NCBI GenBank assembly: GCA_015056105.1
Contig: SVGX01000011.1
Span: 1-38,435 of the forward strand
DNA length: 38,435 bases
From: Clostridiales bacterium
GTDB lineage: Bacteria > Bacillota > Clostridia > Christensenellales > CAG-138
Reading direction: 5' to 3'
The position numbers and the translations under genes are program-made. The notes under the pieces are model-generated. The model was not told the origin of the DNA. It saw nothing but the letters and a program-made list of their open reading frames with translations, and did not search any database. Every line of letters begins with the position of its first letter. Position 1 is the stretch's first letter. Shown here piece by piece: positions 1 to 26,092 of this stretch.

Positions 1-1839
<1,839 letters not shown>

Positions 1840-1871
1840 TGTGTTTCTCTCCCTTCCGTCCCGGTTGGTTC

Positions 1872-4800
1872 TTACTGTTCGCCGTCTTCGCCGTCAAACA
1901 CGGTGAAGCCGTCAAACTGCGCATCGTCTGCCCCCTCTTCATCATCTTCGCCGAAATCGAAATCATCGAATTCGTTGAATGCGTCGCCGGCAGTGGGCAG
2001 CAGCGTGGGCGCGTCTTCGGTGCCCGCAATGTTCACATCGATGGGCGCCGCATCGTCTTCATCGACAAGCTCGCCGATCTTGATCTCTTCCTTGTTTTCC
2101 GCAAGCACCTTGATGTCAAGGCCAAGGGACTGGAGCTCCTTGATGAGTACCTTGAAGGATTCGGGAACGCCGGGTTCAGGCACGTTTTCGCCCTTCACGA
2201 TGGCCTCATAGGTCTTGACGCGGCCGACCACGTCGTCCGACTTGACGGTGAGGATCTCCTGCAGGGTGTTAGCGGCGCCGTAGGCTTCGAGCGCCCAAAC
2301 TTCCATTTCGCCGAAGCGCTGGCCGCCAAACTGGGCTTTGCCGCCAAGAGGCTGCTGCGTGACGAGGGAGTAGGGGCCTGTGGAGCGGGCGTGGATCTTG
2401 TCGTCCACCAGGTGGTGGAGCTTGAGGTAGTACATGTAACCGACGGATACGCGGTTTTCAAAGGGTTCGCCGCTGCGGCCGTCGTAAAGGATGGTCTTGC
2501 CGTCCGCATCGCGGCCCGCCTGGGTAAGAAGACCCTTGATGTCCTCTTCGGAAGCGCCGTCGAATACGGGGGTGGCGATGTGCCAGCCAAGGGACTTGGC
2601 GGCCATGCCAAGGTGCAGTTCGAGAACCTGACCGATGTTCATACGGGAAGGAACGCCGAGGGGGTTCAGCACGATCTGAAGCGGCGTGCCGTCGGGCAGG
2701 AAGGGCATATCCTCTTCGGGGAGGATGCGGGAAATAACACCCTTGTTGCCGTGGCGGCCTGCCATCTTGTCACCAACGGAGATCTTACGCTTCTGGGCGA
2801 TGTAAACGCGCACCAGCTCGTTGACTCCCGGAGGCAGCTCGTCTTTGTTTTCGCGGGTGAAGACCTTGACATCCACAATGACGCCGCCTTCGCCGTGGGG
2901 CACACGGAGGGAGGTGTCGCGGACTTCGCGGGCCTTCTCGCCGAAGATGGCGCGAAGCAGACGCTCTTCCGCGGTGAGCTCGGTCTCGCCCTTCGGGGTG
3001 ACCTTACCGACAAGGATATCGCCGCTTCTGACTTCCGCGCCGATGCGGATGATGCCGCGCTCGTCAAGGTCGGCCAGCGCGTCTTCGCCCACATTGGGGA
3101 TATCGCGGGTGATCTCTTCTTCGCCGAGCTTGGTATCGCGGGCTTCGGTCTCATGCTCCTCGATGTGGATGGAGGTGTAAACATCCTCCTTCACGAGCTT
3201 CTCGCTGATGAGAACGGCGTCCTCGTAGTTGTAGCCTTCCCAGGTCATGAAGCCGATGAGAATGTTGCGGCCGAGGGCGATCTCGCCCTGCTCGGTGGAA
3301 GCACCGTCCGCAAGTACGTCACCCTTCTTCACCCGGTCGCCGGCCTTCACGATGGGCCTCTGGTTGATGCAGGTGCCCTGGTTGGAACGCTGGAACTTGA
3401 TGAGTTTGTACTGGTGACGGATGCCGTCATCGGATTCGGTGACCACCTTATCCGCGCTGACGGAAACAACGGTGGCATCCTCGCGGGCAAGCACCACAAC
3501 GCCGCTGTCGTGGGCGGCCTTGTATTCCATACCGGTGCCGACAACGGGGGCTTCCGGCACGAGGAGCGGCACGGCCTGACGCTGCATGTTGGAACCCATC
3601 AGCGCGCGGTTCGCGTCGTCGTTTTCAAGGAAGGGGATCATCGCCGTCGCCACGGAAACGAGCTGCTTGGGCGAAACGTCAACGTAGTCCACTTCGGTGT
3701 TCTTTACTTCGATGATCTGGTCGAGCCTGCGGGCGATGACACGCTCCTTGTCGAACCAGATCCTGCCGTCTTCGTGCCTGCTGGTGGGCTCGCTGGCCTG
3801 CGCCACGATGAAATCATCCTCTTCGTCGGCAGTCAGGTACACGATGTCCTCAAGGATGGTGCGGTTCTTCGCATCCACCTTGCGGTACGGCGCTTCGATG
3901 AAACCGTACTTATTGATGCGGGCATAGGTGGAAAGGGAGTTAATAAGACCGATGTTGGGACCTTCGGGGGTCTCAATGGGGCACATGCGGCCGTAGTGGG
4001 AATAGTGAACGTCGCGCACATCGAAGGTGGCGCGCTCACGGTTGAGACCGCCGGGGCCGAGAGCGGAGAGACGGCGCTTGTGGGTCAGCTCCGCAAGGGG
4101 GTTGGTCTGATCCATGAACTGGGACAGCTGGCTCGAACCGAAGAATTCCTTGATGGCAGCGGTCACAGGGCGGATGTTGATAAGGTTGGAGGGCATGGCG
4201 GTATCCATATCCTGCAGGCTCATGCGCTCGCGCACAACGCGCTCAAGGCGGGTCATGCCAACGCGGATCTGGTTCTGCAGAAGCTCGCCCACGCTGCGGA
4301 TGCGGCGGTTGCCCAGATGGTCGATATCATCGGTGCGGCCGATGCCGTAGTTCATGCCGATCAGATAGCTGATGGATGCCACGATGTCATCGGGCACGAT
4401 GTGGCGGGGGATCAGGTCATACACATGGACCTTGAGGAATTCCTTTTTGGCCTCTTCATCCATTTCCTTCGCCTCCTCAAGCAGCTGCATGAGGGTGGGG
4501 TAGTGGACCTTCTCGTTGAGGCCCGCCTCTTCGGGATCGAAGGAAAGGAACCTGGAAGCATCCACAAAGTGGTTGCCGAGGACCTTGATCTTTTTATCCT
4601 CAATGGCAAGGTAAACATATTTGATGCCGGCGTCTTCGATGGCCTTTGCGGCTTCGCGGGAGATCACTTCGCCTTCCGCAGCAAGAAGTTCACCGGTGGT
4701 CTTGTCAACAACGGTCTCCGCGCTCACAAAGCCCGCGATGCGGGAAGCGAGGGAAAGCTTTTTGTTGAACTTATAGCGGCCGACGCGAGCAAGGTCATAG

Positions 4801-5597
4801 CGCTTGTCGAAGAAGAGCGCGTTGAGAAGGCTGCGGGCGCTTTCCTCCGTGGGAGGCTCGCCGGGACGCTGACGCTTGTAAATCTCGATAAGACCGTCCT
4901 CGACGGACTTGGTGGTATCCTTTTCAAGGGTCGTCAAAAGACGCTCCTCTTCGCCGAGGAGGTCGATGATCTCCGCATTGGTGCCGTAGCCGAGGGCACG
5001 AAGAAGCGCGGTAATGAACACCTTGCGCTGGCGGTCGATCTTGACATACATGATCTCGTTGGAGTCGGTCTCATACTCAAGCCAGGCACCGCGGTTGGGG
5101 ATCACCTGAGCGGAGAAAAGGTGCTTGCCCACCTTGTCGATGGCCTCGGTGAAATATACGCCGGGGGAGCGCACAAGCTGGCTGACGATAACGCGCTCTG
5201 CGCCGTTGATGATGAAGGTGCCCTGCTCGGTCATCAGCGGGAAATCGCCCATGAAGACAGGCTGCTCCTTCACTTCGCCCGTTTCCTTATTGATAAGGCG
5301 GACGATAACGCGAAGCGGAGCGGAGAAATTCACATCCCGCTCTTTGCATTCTTCCACGGAGTATTTAGGGTGGTCAAAGTCGATGTTATAGTCCACAAAT
5401 TCGAGGACCAGCTTTTCGGAATAGTCGGTGATGGGCGAGATATCCGCCAATACCTCTTTAAGATCTTCCTTGACGAACCGCTCATAGGAATTCTTCTGAA
5501 TTTCAATGAGGTCGGGCATGTCAAGAACTTCGTTGATACGGGAGAAGCTCATGCGCTTCCTTGTGCCCATCTGCACTTCATGCACCATCGCGTTCAC
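1872..5597 (-). CDS. rpoB: DNA-directed RNA polymerase subunit beta
   Basis: 1241 aa ORF with beta-subunit motifs ([55 protein letters not shown]). Upstream of rpoC on the same strand. Confidence 0.98.
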
Positions 5598-5751
5598 TCC
5601 TATACTTTCACCGCGTTTGCGGCTTGATTGCCGGGTGCGTCACCCCAGCGGACATTTTTCCCAATTTGAATATATTCCATACCCAAATTCAGCCAAATCT
5701 GCGTTTATGCCGGAAAAAGCTGACAATCCGCACAGATTACCATGCTAACGC

Positions 5752-21346: not shown

Positions 21347-22756
21347 ATGGCATACGATCTTCAGAAGCTTGACGCGATGATGCAGGCCTTCATTGCGGAA
21401 AAGAAGCTGCCCGGCGTTTCCGTTGCCGTCCGCGGCCCGGAAGGCGTCATCTTTGAAAAGGGTTACGGCGTCGCCAATCTCGAAGGCCGCAAAGTGGATG
21501 AGCACACTATGTACGGCATCGCTTCCATGAGCAAATCCATGACCACCCTTGCCTGCTGCATCCTTGCAGCGGAAGGCAAGCTTTCCTTTGATGATCCTGT
21601 CTGCAAATATTTCCCCAACTTCCGCGTGCCCGGCAACCCCCAGCAGGATGTAACGCTGCGCCACCTTGCCATGCACACCGCCGGCATCCCGCCCATGGAG
21701 CCCCTTGAGTGGTCCATCGCCCTCAATACCCCCGGCCGCGACAGCGACTGGGTACGTGAAATGAAGAACACCGCCCCCAACAAGATGGAGACCATTGATC
21801 AGATCATCGATTACATCGCCACCAACCCCTATAAGACCCTCGGTCAGGCAGGCGAGATCATGAGCTACAGCAACGAAGGCTACGCCATCCTTTCCTACGT
21901 GGTGGATATCGCCTCCGGCACCACCCTGGAAGAATTCCTCATGGAGCGCGTCTTCAAGCCTATTGGCATGACCCGTTCCATTCTTGACCTTGATGCCAGC
22001 GAAGCCACCGCCATGGCCGGCGGCAACATCACGAGCCTCTTTGAACTCGGCGATGACGGCGAACTTGTCTGCGACGACCAGTGGTCCATCCTGCCGCCCT
22101 TCCGCGGCTGTGCCTGCGTGAAGTCCACCGCCCACGATATGGCCCGCTACTATCAGTGCATCGCCAACCGCGGCGTGATCGACGGCGTGCAGGCCATCCC
22201 CGCCGAAGCCATCGAGATCTTTGTCGGCGCCGGCTTCCCCCTGCAGGAGAAGGCCTTCTACTGCTACGGCCTCAACAAGCGCGTAAAGGCCGGCCACGTC
22301 ATCTGCGAGCACAGCGGCGGCCTCCACGGCGTTTCTTCCCACGGCGGTCTGCTTCTTGATGAAAACTACGGTTTCGCCGCCCTCTGCAACCAGGGCAGCA
22401 CCGATCCCGAGCCCCTCGTATGGATGATGTACAACATGATCATGGGTCTGCCCCTTGAGGAAAGCCACCGCTGGCTCTTCCCCACCGGCGAAGACTTTGC
22501 GGAGCCCGAGATGCTCGTGGGCAAGTACATCTGCTACGAAGGCATCCCGGTAACGGTGGATGTGTTCGTGAAGGACGGCAAGGCATGGGCCCGCAACGAT
22601 GAGACCGAGATCGAACTTCTCTGGTCCGGCGGCACCTGGTTCATGACGCGCCGCCTCGACAACGGCGCCCTCGGCAGGATGCACTTCTTCATCCGCGACG
22701 GCAAGGCATGGGCCGTGCAGGTCTATTCCCGCGTTTACCAGAAGCTCGAAGACTGA
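21347..22756 (+). CDS. Serine hydrolase (class C beta-lactamase/penicillin-binding fold)
   Basis: MYGIASMSKSMTTL (SxxK), MSYSNEGYAIL (YxN), CEHSGGLHG. RBS TTAGGAGG before MAYDLQKLDAMM. No obvious signal peptide. Confidence 0.92.
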   Translation: MAYDLQKLDAMMQAFIAEKKLPGVSVAVRGPEGVIFEKGYGVANLEGRKVDEHTMYGIASMSKSMTTLACCILAAEGKLSFDDPVCKYFPNFRVPGNPQQDVTLRHLAMHTAGIPPMEPLEWSIALNTPGRDSDWVREMKNTAPNKMETIDQIIDYIATNPYKTLGQAGEIMSYSNEGYAILSYVVDIASGTTLEEFLMERVFKPIGMTRSILDLDASEATAMAGGNITSLFELGDDGELVCDDQWSILPPFRGCACVKSTAHDMARYYQCIANRGVIDGVQAIPAEAIEIFVGAGFPLQEKAFYCYGLNKRVKAGHVICEHSGGLHGVSSHGGLLLDENYGFAALCNQGSTDPEPLVWMMYNMIMGLPLEESHRWLFPTGEDFAEPEMLVGKYICYEGIPVTVDVFVKDGKAWARNDETEIELLWSGGTWFMTRRLDNGALGRMHFFIRDGKAWAVQVYSRVYQKLED

Positions 22757-22788
22757 TCCGTTTCCTCTTTTTTAAAAAATCATCACCC

Positions 22789-22826
22789 ACAAGCGATGCG
22801 CTTTCCGGCGCATCGCTTGTTTTTTC
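22789..22826 (+). terminator. Rho-independent terminator after the serine hydrolase gene
   Basis: ACAAGCGATGCGC-TTTCCG-GCGCATCGCTTGT-TTTTT. Confidence 0.9.
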
Positions 22827-22864
22827 CTGTGTTTGGGGCTATAATTTAAGGTTAGAAATACCTT
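22817..22864 (+). promoter_or_regulatory. Promoter of the His-rich GTPase gene plus a start-site-proximal inverted repeat
   Basis: TTGTTT (22817-22822) -17 bp- TATAAT (22840-22845), followed by AAGGT-tagaaat-ACCTT... i.e. AAGGT (22848-22852) / ACCTT (22860-22864). Confidence 0.6.
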
Positions 22865-22896
22865 GCAGCGCGGCTGCGGAAAGAAGATGTTTTTTC

Positions 22897-24165
22897 ATGA
22901 CAAAAATCGATATTTTCTCCGGCTTTCTCGGTGCGGGCAAAACCACCCTCATCAAAAAGCTGATCAAAGAAGCCTATGCGGGCGAAAAGCTGGTTTTGAT
23001 CGAAAACGAATTCGGCGAGATCGCCGTGGATGGCGGTTTCCTGCAGGATGCGGGCGTGGATATCACGGAAATGAACTCCGGCTGCATCTGCTGCAGCCTT
23101 GTGGGCGACTTTGCGGAAGCCCTGAAAAAAGTGATCGCGGATTTTGCACCCGACCGCATCCTCATCGAACCCTCCGGCGTGGGCAAGCTGAGCGACGTGA
23201 TCCGTGCCGTCAACGGCATCGGCGAAGCTGCCCTTTCCCTCAACAGCGCCACCGCCGTGGTGGATGCGAATAAGTGCAAAATGTACATGAAAAACTTCGG
23301 CGAGTTCTTCAACGATCAGGTGGAACACGCCGGCGCCCTCATCCTTTCCCGCACGGACAGCATCGGTGCGGATAAACTGGCGGCGGCGGTGGCTCTGCTC
23401 CGGGAACACAACCCGGAGGCCGTGATCGTCACTACCCCCTGGAACGAGCTTTCCGGCGCACAGATCCTTGCCGCCATGGAACAAAAGGATACCCTCAGCG
23501 CCGCCATGGAAGCGCTGCAGCAGGAAAAGCACCACCATCATCACCATGATGACGAATGCTGCTGCGGCCATGATCACCATGAACACCATCACCACGATGA
23601 GGAATGCTGCTGCGGCCATGATCACCATGAACACCATCACCACGATGAGGAATGCTGCTGCGGCCACGATCACCATGAACACCATCACCACGATGACGAA
23701 TGCTGCTGCGGCCACGATCACCATGAGCATCATCACCATGATGACGAATGCTGCTGCGGCCACGATCACCATGAACACCATCACCATGATGGCGAATGCT
23801 GCTGCGGCCACGATCACCATGAGCATCATCACCACGATGGCGAATGCTGCTGCGGCCACGATCACGAACACGGCCACCACCATGCGGACGAAGTGTTCAT
23901 GAGCTGGGGCATTGAGACCACCCATAAGTTTGACCCTGCCGCCCTTGAAGAATCCCTCAACGCCCTTGCGGATGAAGAGCGCTTCGGCGCCGTGCTGCGT
24001 GCAAAGGGCATCGTGCAGGGCGAGAACGGAAACTGGCTGCACTTTGACCTTGTGCCCGGCGAGGTATCCCTCCGCGAAGGCAGCGCCGCCATCACCGGCA
24101 GGCTCTGCGTCATCGGCGCGAAACTGAACGAAACCGCCCTCAAGGCGCTGTTCCCCGCCAAATAA
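22897..24165 (+). CDS. CobW/COG0523-like GTP-binding protein with internal His/Cys-rich repeat region
   Basis: MTKIDIFSGFLGAGKTTLIKKL (Walker A), NSGCICCSL (CxCC metal motif), ILIEPSGVG, ILSRTD. C-terminal CobW-C-like tail RAKGIVQGENGNWLHFDLVPGEV. Confidence 0.95.
   Translation: MTKIDIFSGFLGAGKTTLIKKLIKEAYAGEKLVLIENEFGEIAVDGGFLQDAGVDITEMNSGCICCSLVGDFAEALKKVIADFAPDRILIEPSGVGKLSDVIRAVNGIGEAALSLNSATAVVDANKCKMYMKNFGEFFNDQVEHAGALILSRTDSIGADKLAAAVALLREHNPEAVIVTTPWNELSGAQILAAMEQKDTLSAAMEALQQEKHHHHHHDDECCCGHDHHEHHHHDEECCCGHDHHEHHHHDEECCCGHDHHEHHHHDDECCCGHDHHEHHHHDDECCCGHDHHEHHHHDGECCCGHDHHEHHHHDGECCCGHDHEHGHHHADEVFMSWGIETTHKFDPAALEESLNALADEERFGAVLRAKGIVQGENGNWLHFDLVPGEVSLREGSAAITGRLCVIGAKLNETALKALFPAK
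23548..23883 (+). repeat. Seven tandem 48-bp in-frame repeats encoding D(D/E/G)ECCCGHDHHEHHHH
   Basis: Units read directly, e.g. GATGAGGAATGCTGCTGCGGCCATGATCACCATGAACACCATCACCAC. Preceded by six His codons from 23530. The last unit has diverged at its end (HDHEHGHHH). Confidence 0.97.
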
Positions 24166-24175
24166 AGGAGACAAA

Positions 24176-25120
24176 ATGAAAGAGATCCCCGTATATCTGT
24201 TTACCGGCTTCCTTGAGGCAGGCAAGACCCGCTTCATTCAGGAAACGCTGGAGGATAAGCGCTTCAACGCCGGCGAAAGGACGCTGCTCCTTCTCTGCGA
24301 GGAGGGCGAGGAGGAATATGCCCCCGATACCTTTGCCGCCAGCGAAGTGTATATTGAAACCGTTGAAAACGAAAGCGATCTCAACGCAAAAGCGCTGGCG
24401 GCCATGCTCAAAAAATACAAGGCCACCCGTGTGATCGTGGAATATAACGGCATGTGGCAGCTTGATTCCCTTTACGGAAACATGCCCGAGGGCTGGAGCA
24501 TCTACCAGGAATTCCTGTTTGCGGATGCCCGCACCTTCCTCAATTACAACCAGAACATGCGCTCCCTTGTGGTGGATAAGCTCAAAAGCTGCGAGCTCGT
24601 GGTGTTCAACCGCACGGAAGAAACCACGGATAAGCTCATGTTCCACAAGATCGTCAGGGCTACCTCCCGCCGCACGAACATCGCCTTCGAATATGAAGAC
24701 GGCCGCGTGGAGTATGACGAGATCGAAGACCCCCTGCCCTATGATCTTGAAGCCCCCATCGTGGAGATCGCCGACAGGGATTATGCCATCTTTTACCGTG
24801 ACATTGCGGAAGACCCGGAAAAATATGAGGGCAAAACGCTGCGCTACAAGGGTATCGTTGCCAACGCAAAGGGCCTTGGCAAAGAGATCTTCATCATTGG
24901 CCGCCATGTGATGACCTGCTGCAAGGATGATATTCAATACAGCGCCCTTGTGTGCAATTACAAAGAAGCATCCACCCTCAAAAAGCGGGATTGGGTCATG
25001 CTTACCGCCACAGTGAAGCTTGAATACCATAAGGCCTACGGCATGAAGGGCCCTGTTTTGACCGCCATCAGCGTGGAGAGCGCCGAAAAGCCGGAAGAAG
25101 AGCTTGCTACCTTCTTCTAA
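24176..25120 (+). CDS. GTP-binding protein (COG0523-like) fused to a TIGR03943/YcgQ-like C-terminal region
   Basis: VYLFTGFLEAGKTRFIQETL (Walker A); C-terminus DPEKYEGKTLRYKGIVANAKGLGKEIFIIGRHVMTCCKDDIQYSALVCNY resembles the conserved gR..MtCC..D segment of YcgQ/TIGR03943. Confidence 0.82.
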   Translation: MKEIPVYLFTGFLEAGKTRFIQETLEDKRFNAGERTLLLLCEEGEEEYAPDTFAASEVYIETVENESDLNAKALAAMLKKYKATRVIVEYNGMWQLDSLYGNMPEGWSIYQEFLFADARTFLNYNQNMRSLVVDKLKSCELVVFNRTEETTDKLMFHKIVRATSRRTNIAFEYEDGRVEYDEIEDPLPYDLEAPIVEIADRDYAIFYRDIAEDPEKYEGKTLRYKGIVANAKGLGKEIFIIGRHVMTCCKDDIQYSALVCNYKEASTLKKRDWVMLTATVKLEYHKAYGMKGPVLTAISVESAEKPEEELATFF

Positions 25121-25240
25121 GCCCCTTCCGATTGTAAACTTTCTTTGCAAAATGCGTCCCTTTCCCCATCTTTTGATGACAGGGCGCGCCCGGTGCATGT
25201 ATACTGATAACGTATCCTATTTGCTGTTTTCAGGAGGTTT

Positions 25241-26092
25241 ATGACCTTGAGACACCTTCGTTTTCTTGCCCTTCTGCTTGCGGGGCTGCTGCTCCTGCCC
25301 CTTGCGGCCTGTGCAAAACCCGTTACCGAAGCAGGCAGCAGCGTGATCGATATCCCCGTTGAGACCCCCGCCCCCACCGAAGCGCCTGCCGTTCAGGGCA
25401 GCGTACCCACGGCACCCATCCCGGAGGAAACGCCCGCACCGGCCCTGTCTGCCGCACCGGAGACGACCGCCGCGCCCATTCCGGCGCCTGCGACCCCCGC
25501 ACCGGCAGAAACGCCCAGGCCCACCGAAGCGCCCGCTGCAACGGAGGCTCCCGCTGTGACCCCTGCGCCGGAAGCGGAAAACAATGCTCCCGTTCCTTCC
25601 GGCGACCTTCCCTATTACCTGTATGTGGAAAAGGGCTCCTTCACGCTGACCATCTATGAGCGCGCATCTGACGGCACCTATTCCAAGGTATACAAAACCT
25701 ACCGCATCGCTCACGGCGGCAACAAAACTCCCGCGGGTTCCTTCACCCTTGGCGGTGACAGGGAACGCTGGCATGAATTCCCCGATGGCGGTTTCGTGCA
25801 GTTCGCTACCCGTTACCATAAGCGGCTCTACATCCACTCCCCCCTTTACGGCGAGGAGAACAACGGCTACATGTGGCCCAAATATTATGACGGCGAACTG
25901 GGCATCGGCAAGGAATCCACCGGCGGATGTCTGCGCATGGTCACGGAAGCCGCCCGTTTCATCTATGAAAACTGCCCGGAAGGCACGGTGATGGAGATCG
26001 TAAACGGCGCCCCCAAGGGCACCACCAGCGATGAAGTCCCGAGCCGCAACGGCGAACGCTACGACCCGACGGATGTGGAGGCCAAACGCTGA
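25241..26092 (+). CDS. L,D-transpeptidase (YkuD domain) lipoprotein with Pro/Thr/Ala-rich stalk
   Basis: Lipobox LLPLAACAK; low-complexity PAPTEAPA stalk; HSPLYGEENNGYMWPKYYDGELGIGKESTGGCLRM matches the Hx...S-x-GCLR catalytic region. Confidence 0.9.
   Translation: MTLRHLRFLALLLAGLLLLPLAACAKPVTEAGSSVIDIPVETPAPTEAPAVQGSVPTAPIPEETPAPALSAAPETTAAPIPAPATPAPAETPRPTEAPAATEAPAVTPAPEAENNAPVPSGDLPYYLYVEKGSFTLTIYERASDGTYSKVYKTYRIAHGGNKTPAGSFTLGGDRERWHEFPDGGFVQFATRYHKRLYIHSPLYGEENNGYMWPKYYDGELGIGKESTGGCLRMVTEAARFIYENCPEGTVMEIVNGAPKGTTSDEVPSRNGERYDPTDVEAKR

Follow-up and report, generated by a model that had tools for sequence, protein, structure and literature searches.

The window, i.e. the whole stretch of DNA analysed here (38,435 nucleotides), is one entire contig (C27) of a genome denoted G000, which comprises 88 contigs and 1.81 Mb and is estimated to be 87% complete; its sister species is denoted G003, and all comparisons were made with one genome per species. 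On the forward strand, at 22897..24165, lies a gene (gene A) for a 422-residue GTPase of the COG0523 (CobW) type that carries a repeat loop between its two domains. This assignment, already made in the preliminary description, is borne out by profile matches to PF02492 (E=2.6e-36, residues 6–177) and PF07683 (E=3.3e-9, residues 335–419; 36.9 bits against a cut-off of 22). The GTPase domain (residues 1–211, 22897..23529) contains a Walker A motif of the GxxGxGKT/S form (GFLGAGKT, residues 9–16) and the metal-site motif GCICC, an instance of GCxCC (residues 62–66, 23080..23094), each invariant in all 60 aligned orthologs. Also falling in invariant alignment columns are EPSG, from the hhhExxG motif (LIEPSG), and SRTD, which occupies the position of NKxD (or [ST]KxD) at approximately residues 151–154. 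The CobW_C domain (residues 335–419) spans 23899..24153. Every named COG0523/G3E equivalog model scores A under its cut-off, including those for CobW (TIGR02475, 78.8 bits, cut-off 332), ZigA (NF038288, 76.7 bits, cut-off 600) and HypB (TIGR00073, 21.7 bits, cut-off 121). In the predicted structure, the GTPase and CobW_C domains are confident except around GCxCC (residues 38–46 and 55–69), and the nearest solved structure is that of Escherichia coli YjiA, its Zn-bound form included.

Upstream of A, an intrinsic terminator (22789..22820, forward strand; a 14-pair stem followed by a T run) ends the preceding gene, which encodes a beta-lactamase-fold protein, and makes the GTPase gene a unit of its own. 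A putative sigma-70 promoter (22817..22845, forward strand), read from the sequence as TTGTTT (22817–22822), a 17-nt spacer and TATAAT (22840–22845), is alike in three genus mates and was missed by a strict consensus scan. A likely ribosome-binding site, GGAAAGAAG (22878..22886, forward strand), recurs as a motif upstream of orthologs. Just 3' of the -10 box there is an AAGGT...ACCTT inverted repeat that is common to G003 and lost in the other genus mates shown. No riboswitch was matched by Rfam at E<=1 in 22300–25400, no recurrent inverted repeat or palindrome resembling a Zur operator was present among 93 upstream regions, and no operator common to the upstream regions of A and znuA was found.

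Ten bases separate the stop codon of A from the start of gene B (24176..25120, forward strand), which encodes a second, G3E-like GTPase (PF02492-like) fused to a DUF1980_C domain (PF21537; 24749..25099, placed by profile match, alignment and model). Across the 54 members compared, the weak GTPase match is found in 53 and the DUF1980_C match in all, and both the P-loop, GFLxxGKT, and a Cys-Cys pair within DUF1980_C (residues 248–249, nucleotides 24917–24922) are invariant. B is modelled with confidence (mean pLDDT 93), and the model matches YjiA across the GTPase part; among its weaker matches are MCM N-terminal and tRNA-synthetase structures, which hint at an OB-like fold for DUF1980_C. At 92 of 100 loci, A is followed by B on its own strand; where B was not seen, the contig ends too soon in seven cases, and the eighth is the distant G006. 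Of the 21 neighbourhoods examined, nearly all contain B, and no other neighbour of A comes close to this frequency. The usual partner of DUF1980 is an ArsP_1 permease. Such a permease was rejected as a constant companion here, having been matched in three of the five genus members, and recoding at the in-frame TGAs of the ArsP_1 matches was likewise rejected, as these TGAs looked like gene ends. B has DUF1980_C in common with TIGR03943/DUF1980 (YcgQ-type) proteins; however, it differs from them in joining this domain to a GTPase domain of G3E-like type and in that its TIGR03943 score (75.4) is below the cut-off of 88.8. Gene B appears to be a partner that is widespread in the COG0523 subgroup of A and so far undescribed.

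The loop of A (23530..23883) has 118 residues, of which 54 are His, 21 Cys, 17 Asp, 16 Glu and 10 Gly, with no others, in agreement with the earlier count of about 21 Cys and more than 50 His. It is predicted to be disordered, with pLDDT<50 throughout residues 222–331. Within it, seven tandem 48-bp units (23548..23883) start at 23548, 23596, 23644, 23692, 23740, 23788 and 23836; Tandem Repeats Finder reports 23539–23865 with period 48, 6.8 copies, 95% matches and a score of 563. In frame, units 1–6 read D(D/E/G)ECCCGHDHHEHHHH, whereas unit 7 (23836–23883), DGECCCGHDHEHGHHH, is degenerate past ten codons, so that the seven near-identical repeats first described are indeed seven units of 48 bp, only six of which are near-identical. 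The 16-residue periodicity stands at z = 24 against shuffles of that loop and is not due to chance. The six full units differ at six nucleotide sites, four of them silent and two located in the single codon that varies among Asp, Glu and Gly, and the longest exact repeat within the array is 65 bp. It had been proposed that a two-unit block was duplicated, because units 4 and 6 share GAGCATCAT while units 3 and 5 share GAACACCAT. The former sharing is correct; the latter sequence is present as stated but occurs also in units 1 and 2, and identity at lag 96 (0.943) is no higher than at lag 48 (0.950). Block duplication was therefore rejected, and, given also the stepwise one-base differences between units 1, 2 and 3, duplication of single units fits better.

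Orthologs of A are present in all five genus members, in 46 of 103 family genomes (E<=1e-30) and, as related stretches, at least 576 times in one scan of species genomes, the best 80 of which are, going by record titles, mainly from animal-gut and rumen Clostridia. Almost all gut-Clostridia orthologs have a loop at this position. Within the genus, CCC arrays are confined to G000 and G003, the latter having eight units of 15–16 residues (as opposed to seven in G000) at the same position with a different synonymous pattern, and the loops of G001, G002 and G004 are of the HEHEHE type and include short Cys motifs, for instance CPVCG; searched for as a nucleotide pattern in 396 genomes of the order, the CCC pattern occurs in only 2. 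The 110 loops of at least 30 residues have medians of 81 residues in length, 38 His, 6 Cys and an H/C/D/E/G fraction of 0.98, with Lys, Arg and hydrophobic residues nearly missing. This fraction is at least 0.9 in 98% of the loops, even though their units are unrelated. About half of the loops (57 of 110) show periodicity with z>5 when compared with shuffled versions of themselves, and the periodic units differ across lineages, as exemplified by ECECGHHHEHDH, DEDCHCHEHHHH, HEHHHHHDHEHEG and the 23-residue HDEHCCCGHDHHEHHEHHEHHHD. The Cys counts of G000 and G003 (21 and 22) are the highest among the loops compared; many orthologs have few or no Cys, and since six of the loops lack Cys altogether, the role of the segment does not depend on the CCC motif. 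As a separate observation, a P-type metal-ATPase of G003 (L016:2384-4591 = G003:C17:5383-7587), a protein unrelated to A, bears a similar His/Cys array at its N-terminus, in which units like DGCGCGHDHKHEHH recur at 42-bp spacing; the protein that matches it best in G000 is another ATPase, 35% identical.

Comparisons between close relatives support the earlier suggestion of recent tandem turnover. Units within G000 are on average 94.6% identical to one another but 83.6% identical to those of G003 (maximum 88.9%), whereas the GTPase regions of the two species are 92% identical, which indicates that the arrays were rewritten after the species split. Likewise, in G060 and G071 the loops are different, while the GTPase DNA is 99.3% identical and the aligned surroundings are approximately 92–96% identical. 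Judging from these sequences, both the closer identity within than between sister genomes and the differing loops of G060 and G071, the segment turns over by tandem duplication with its metal-ligand composition retained. On a tree of the GTPase domain, the distribution of loops with at least two CCC motifs needs six changes, at least four of which are forced by well-supported branches, and CCC arrays are thus recurrent rather than a single invention. The CCC array that had been called striking is real but less singular than it appeared, since most orthologs have a repeat-built loop of their own and CCC arrays arose repeatedly. In the G056 bin there are two copies of the gene, L064 (G056:C71) and L065 (C41), whose GTPase regions are 96% identical and whose loops differ; this bin is possibly a mix of two related strains or species.

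With regard to metal context, no match to CobN was obtained in G000 (87% complete) or in G003, and HypA gave only sub-threshold matches in these two genomes; both results argue against cobalt or nickel clients of the kinds already described. G000 and G003 both have ZnuABC. In G000, znuA-znuC-znuB is found at C3:1216-3811 (L194), near the start of a contig that, by comparison with G003:C32, probably follows the right end of the window (~38435). ZnuABC lies approximately 18 kb from A in G002 and G003, and, as the two are not adjacent, an operon link was rejected. G000 has one Fur-family gene. Permeases like SMU_747c of Streptococcus mutans pair with DUF1980 proteins. In Bacillus anthracis, the promoter of a permease related to SMU_747c is bound by Zur (PMC6336718), and by this analogy DUF1980_C may be linked, indirectly, to metals. 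Taken with the scores of the CobW and HypB models far under cut-off, the CobN and HypA results and the presence of ZnuABC make zinc the best guess for the metal of A.

A is probably a COG0523 metallochaperone with an expandable, disordered metal-binding loop, most likely for zinc, that acts together with its DUF1980_C partner. The architecture, the composition, the turnover and the constant partner are read directly from the sequence. COG0523 proteins hold metal at GCxCC in a nucleotide-dependent manner; among them, CobW takes Co(II) and YjiA prefers Zn(II) (PMC7895991). Within the family, His-stretches are tied to metallochaperone roles and to zinc subgroups (PMC2770081). In G3E GTPases more widely, His-stretches are taken as marks of metallochaperone activity (PMC2770081). 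Metal binding by the loop, zinc as the metal, a role in reserve or capture and cooperation with B are inferred. The conserved core (P-loop, GCICC site and CobW_C) would handle one metal ion in a GTP-dependent manner, and the disordered loop between the two folded domains would bind several extra ions, zinc being the most likely. Metal so held would be kept close to the GCxCC site and to B, both of which the loop would supply from its flexible set of metal sites, whether as a local reserve or for faster capture under metal scarcity. Tandem duplication inside the gene would lengthen and rewrite the loop, with selection preserving composition rather than exact sequence or length. It is also conceivable, if unlikely, that the loop is hypermutable in the manner of a contingency locus, in which slippage or unequal recombination keeps changing unit number and sequence within populations and so lets gut Clostridia tune how much metal the two-GTPase module of A and B can hold, along with its Cys:His ratio and hence its metal preference.

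Several other explanations bear on the loop. With its 21 Cys and 54 His, the 118-residue loop would suit a metallothionein-like sponge for the detoxification or storage of excess Zn, Cu or Cd, as opposed to delivery under scarcity, and the array of DGCGCGHDHKHEHH-type units in G003 sits on a P1B-type ATPase, an efflux-type protein. Such a sponge is nonetheless a doubtful reading, for the protein that carries the loop is a COG0523 GTPase that keeps its GCxCC site intact and is constantly accompanied by a second GTPase, and many orthologs have few or no Cys. That the loop serves nickel or cobalt is suggested by HypB and CobW, the best-known G3E GTPases with His stretches (PMC2770081), but is very unlikely in view of the equivalog scores, the CobN and HypA results and the fact that B is the only recurrent neighbour of A.

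The loop might also be a largely neutral low-complexity linker, grown by slippage and tolerated because it is disordered. The wide variation in length and unit and the predicted disorder are what such a linker would display, but the near-uniform H/C/D/E/G composition of loops built from unrelated units makes it quite improbable, and the silent state of four of the six variable sites adds weak evidence of constraint. The array might, finally, be an artefact of a short-read assembly, as the genome, probably a MAG, is split into 88 contigs, of which the window is one, and the array is longer than a typical short read. This is exceedingly improbable, because the longest exact repeat is short enough (65 bp) to be crossed by short reads and because the eight-unit array of G003 was assembled independently with its own synonymous pattern; moreover, His/Cys loops occur also in records whose titles name strains, such as L098 and L147. 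The exact number of units rests on one assembly and could be off.

The host family of A is already known, as are the His-rich loops in it. With other COG0523/G3E GTPases (YjiA, ZagA/YciC, ZigA and CobW), A has the P-loop, GCxCC, ExxG and CobW_C in common; its subgroup differs in swapping the repeat unit between close relatives and in having a constant DUF1980_C partner. In a survey of 887 COG0523 members, His-stretches were present in approximately 40% and contained up to 29 His (PMC2770081), whereas the loop of A, with its 54 His and 21 Cys, is periodic and built from a Cys-rich unit. HypB, whose N-terminal His stretch binds Ni (18 Ni per dimer in the case of Bradyrhizobium japonicum; PMC2770081), resembles A in bearing a His-rich segment on a G3E GTPase, but the segment of A lies between domains and is Cys-rich, and the HypB model scores far under cut-off. 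Residues 203–256 of A are matched by phmmer (E=1.3e-4) to the His/Cys metal-binding tail of E. coli SlyD; this is a likeness of composition with an unrelated protein and no evidence of common origin. Paper searches brought up no publication on hypervariable arrays of His and Cys in this subgroup, though one may still exist. Nor was a description found of the Cys-rich periodic loop, of the repeated replacement of units within a subgroup that is otherwise conserved or of the GTPase-DUF1980_C protein as a near-constant partner, and the two-GTPase module is without a described function.

Many COG0523 subgroups are without a known client or metal, and that of A is widespread in gut Clostridia with a near-constant partner. 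Its natural loop variants differ in length and Cys content on a nearly unchanged core, and the role of His/Cys loops on G3E GTPases is therefore directly testable with native sequences. The loop is, in addition, a clear case of a protein segment of conserved composition whose sequence is repeatedly rebuilt via tandem duplication. Elsewhere in the window, an open frame of 1262 codons (1839–5627, forward strand) runs antisense to rpoB (1872–5597, reverse strand); codon usage and base composition are the likeliest cause of it.
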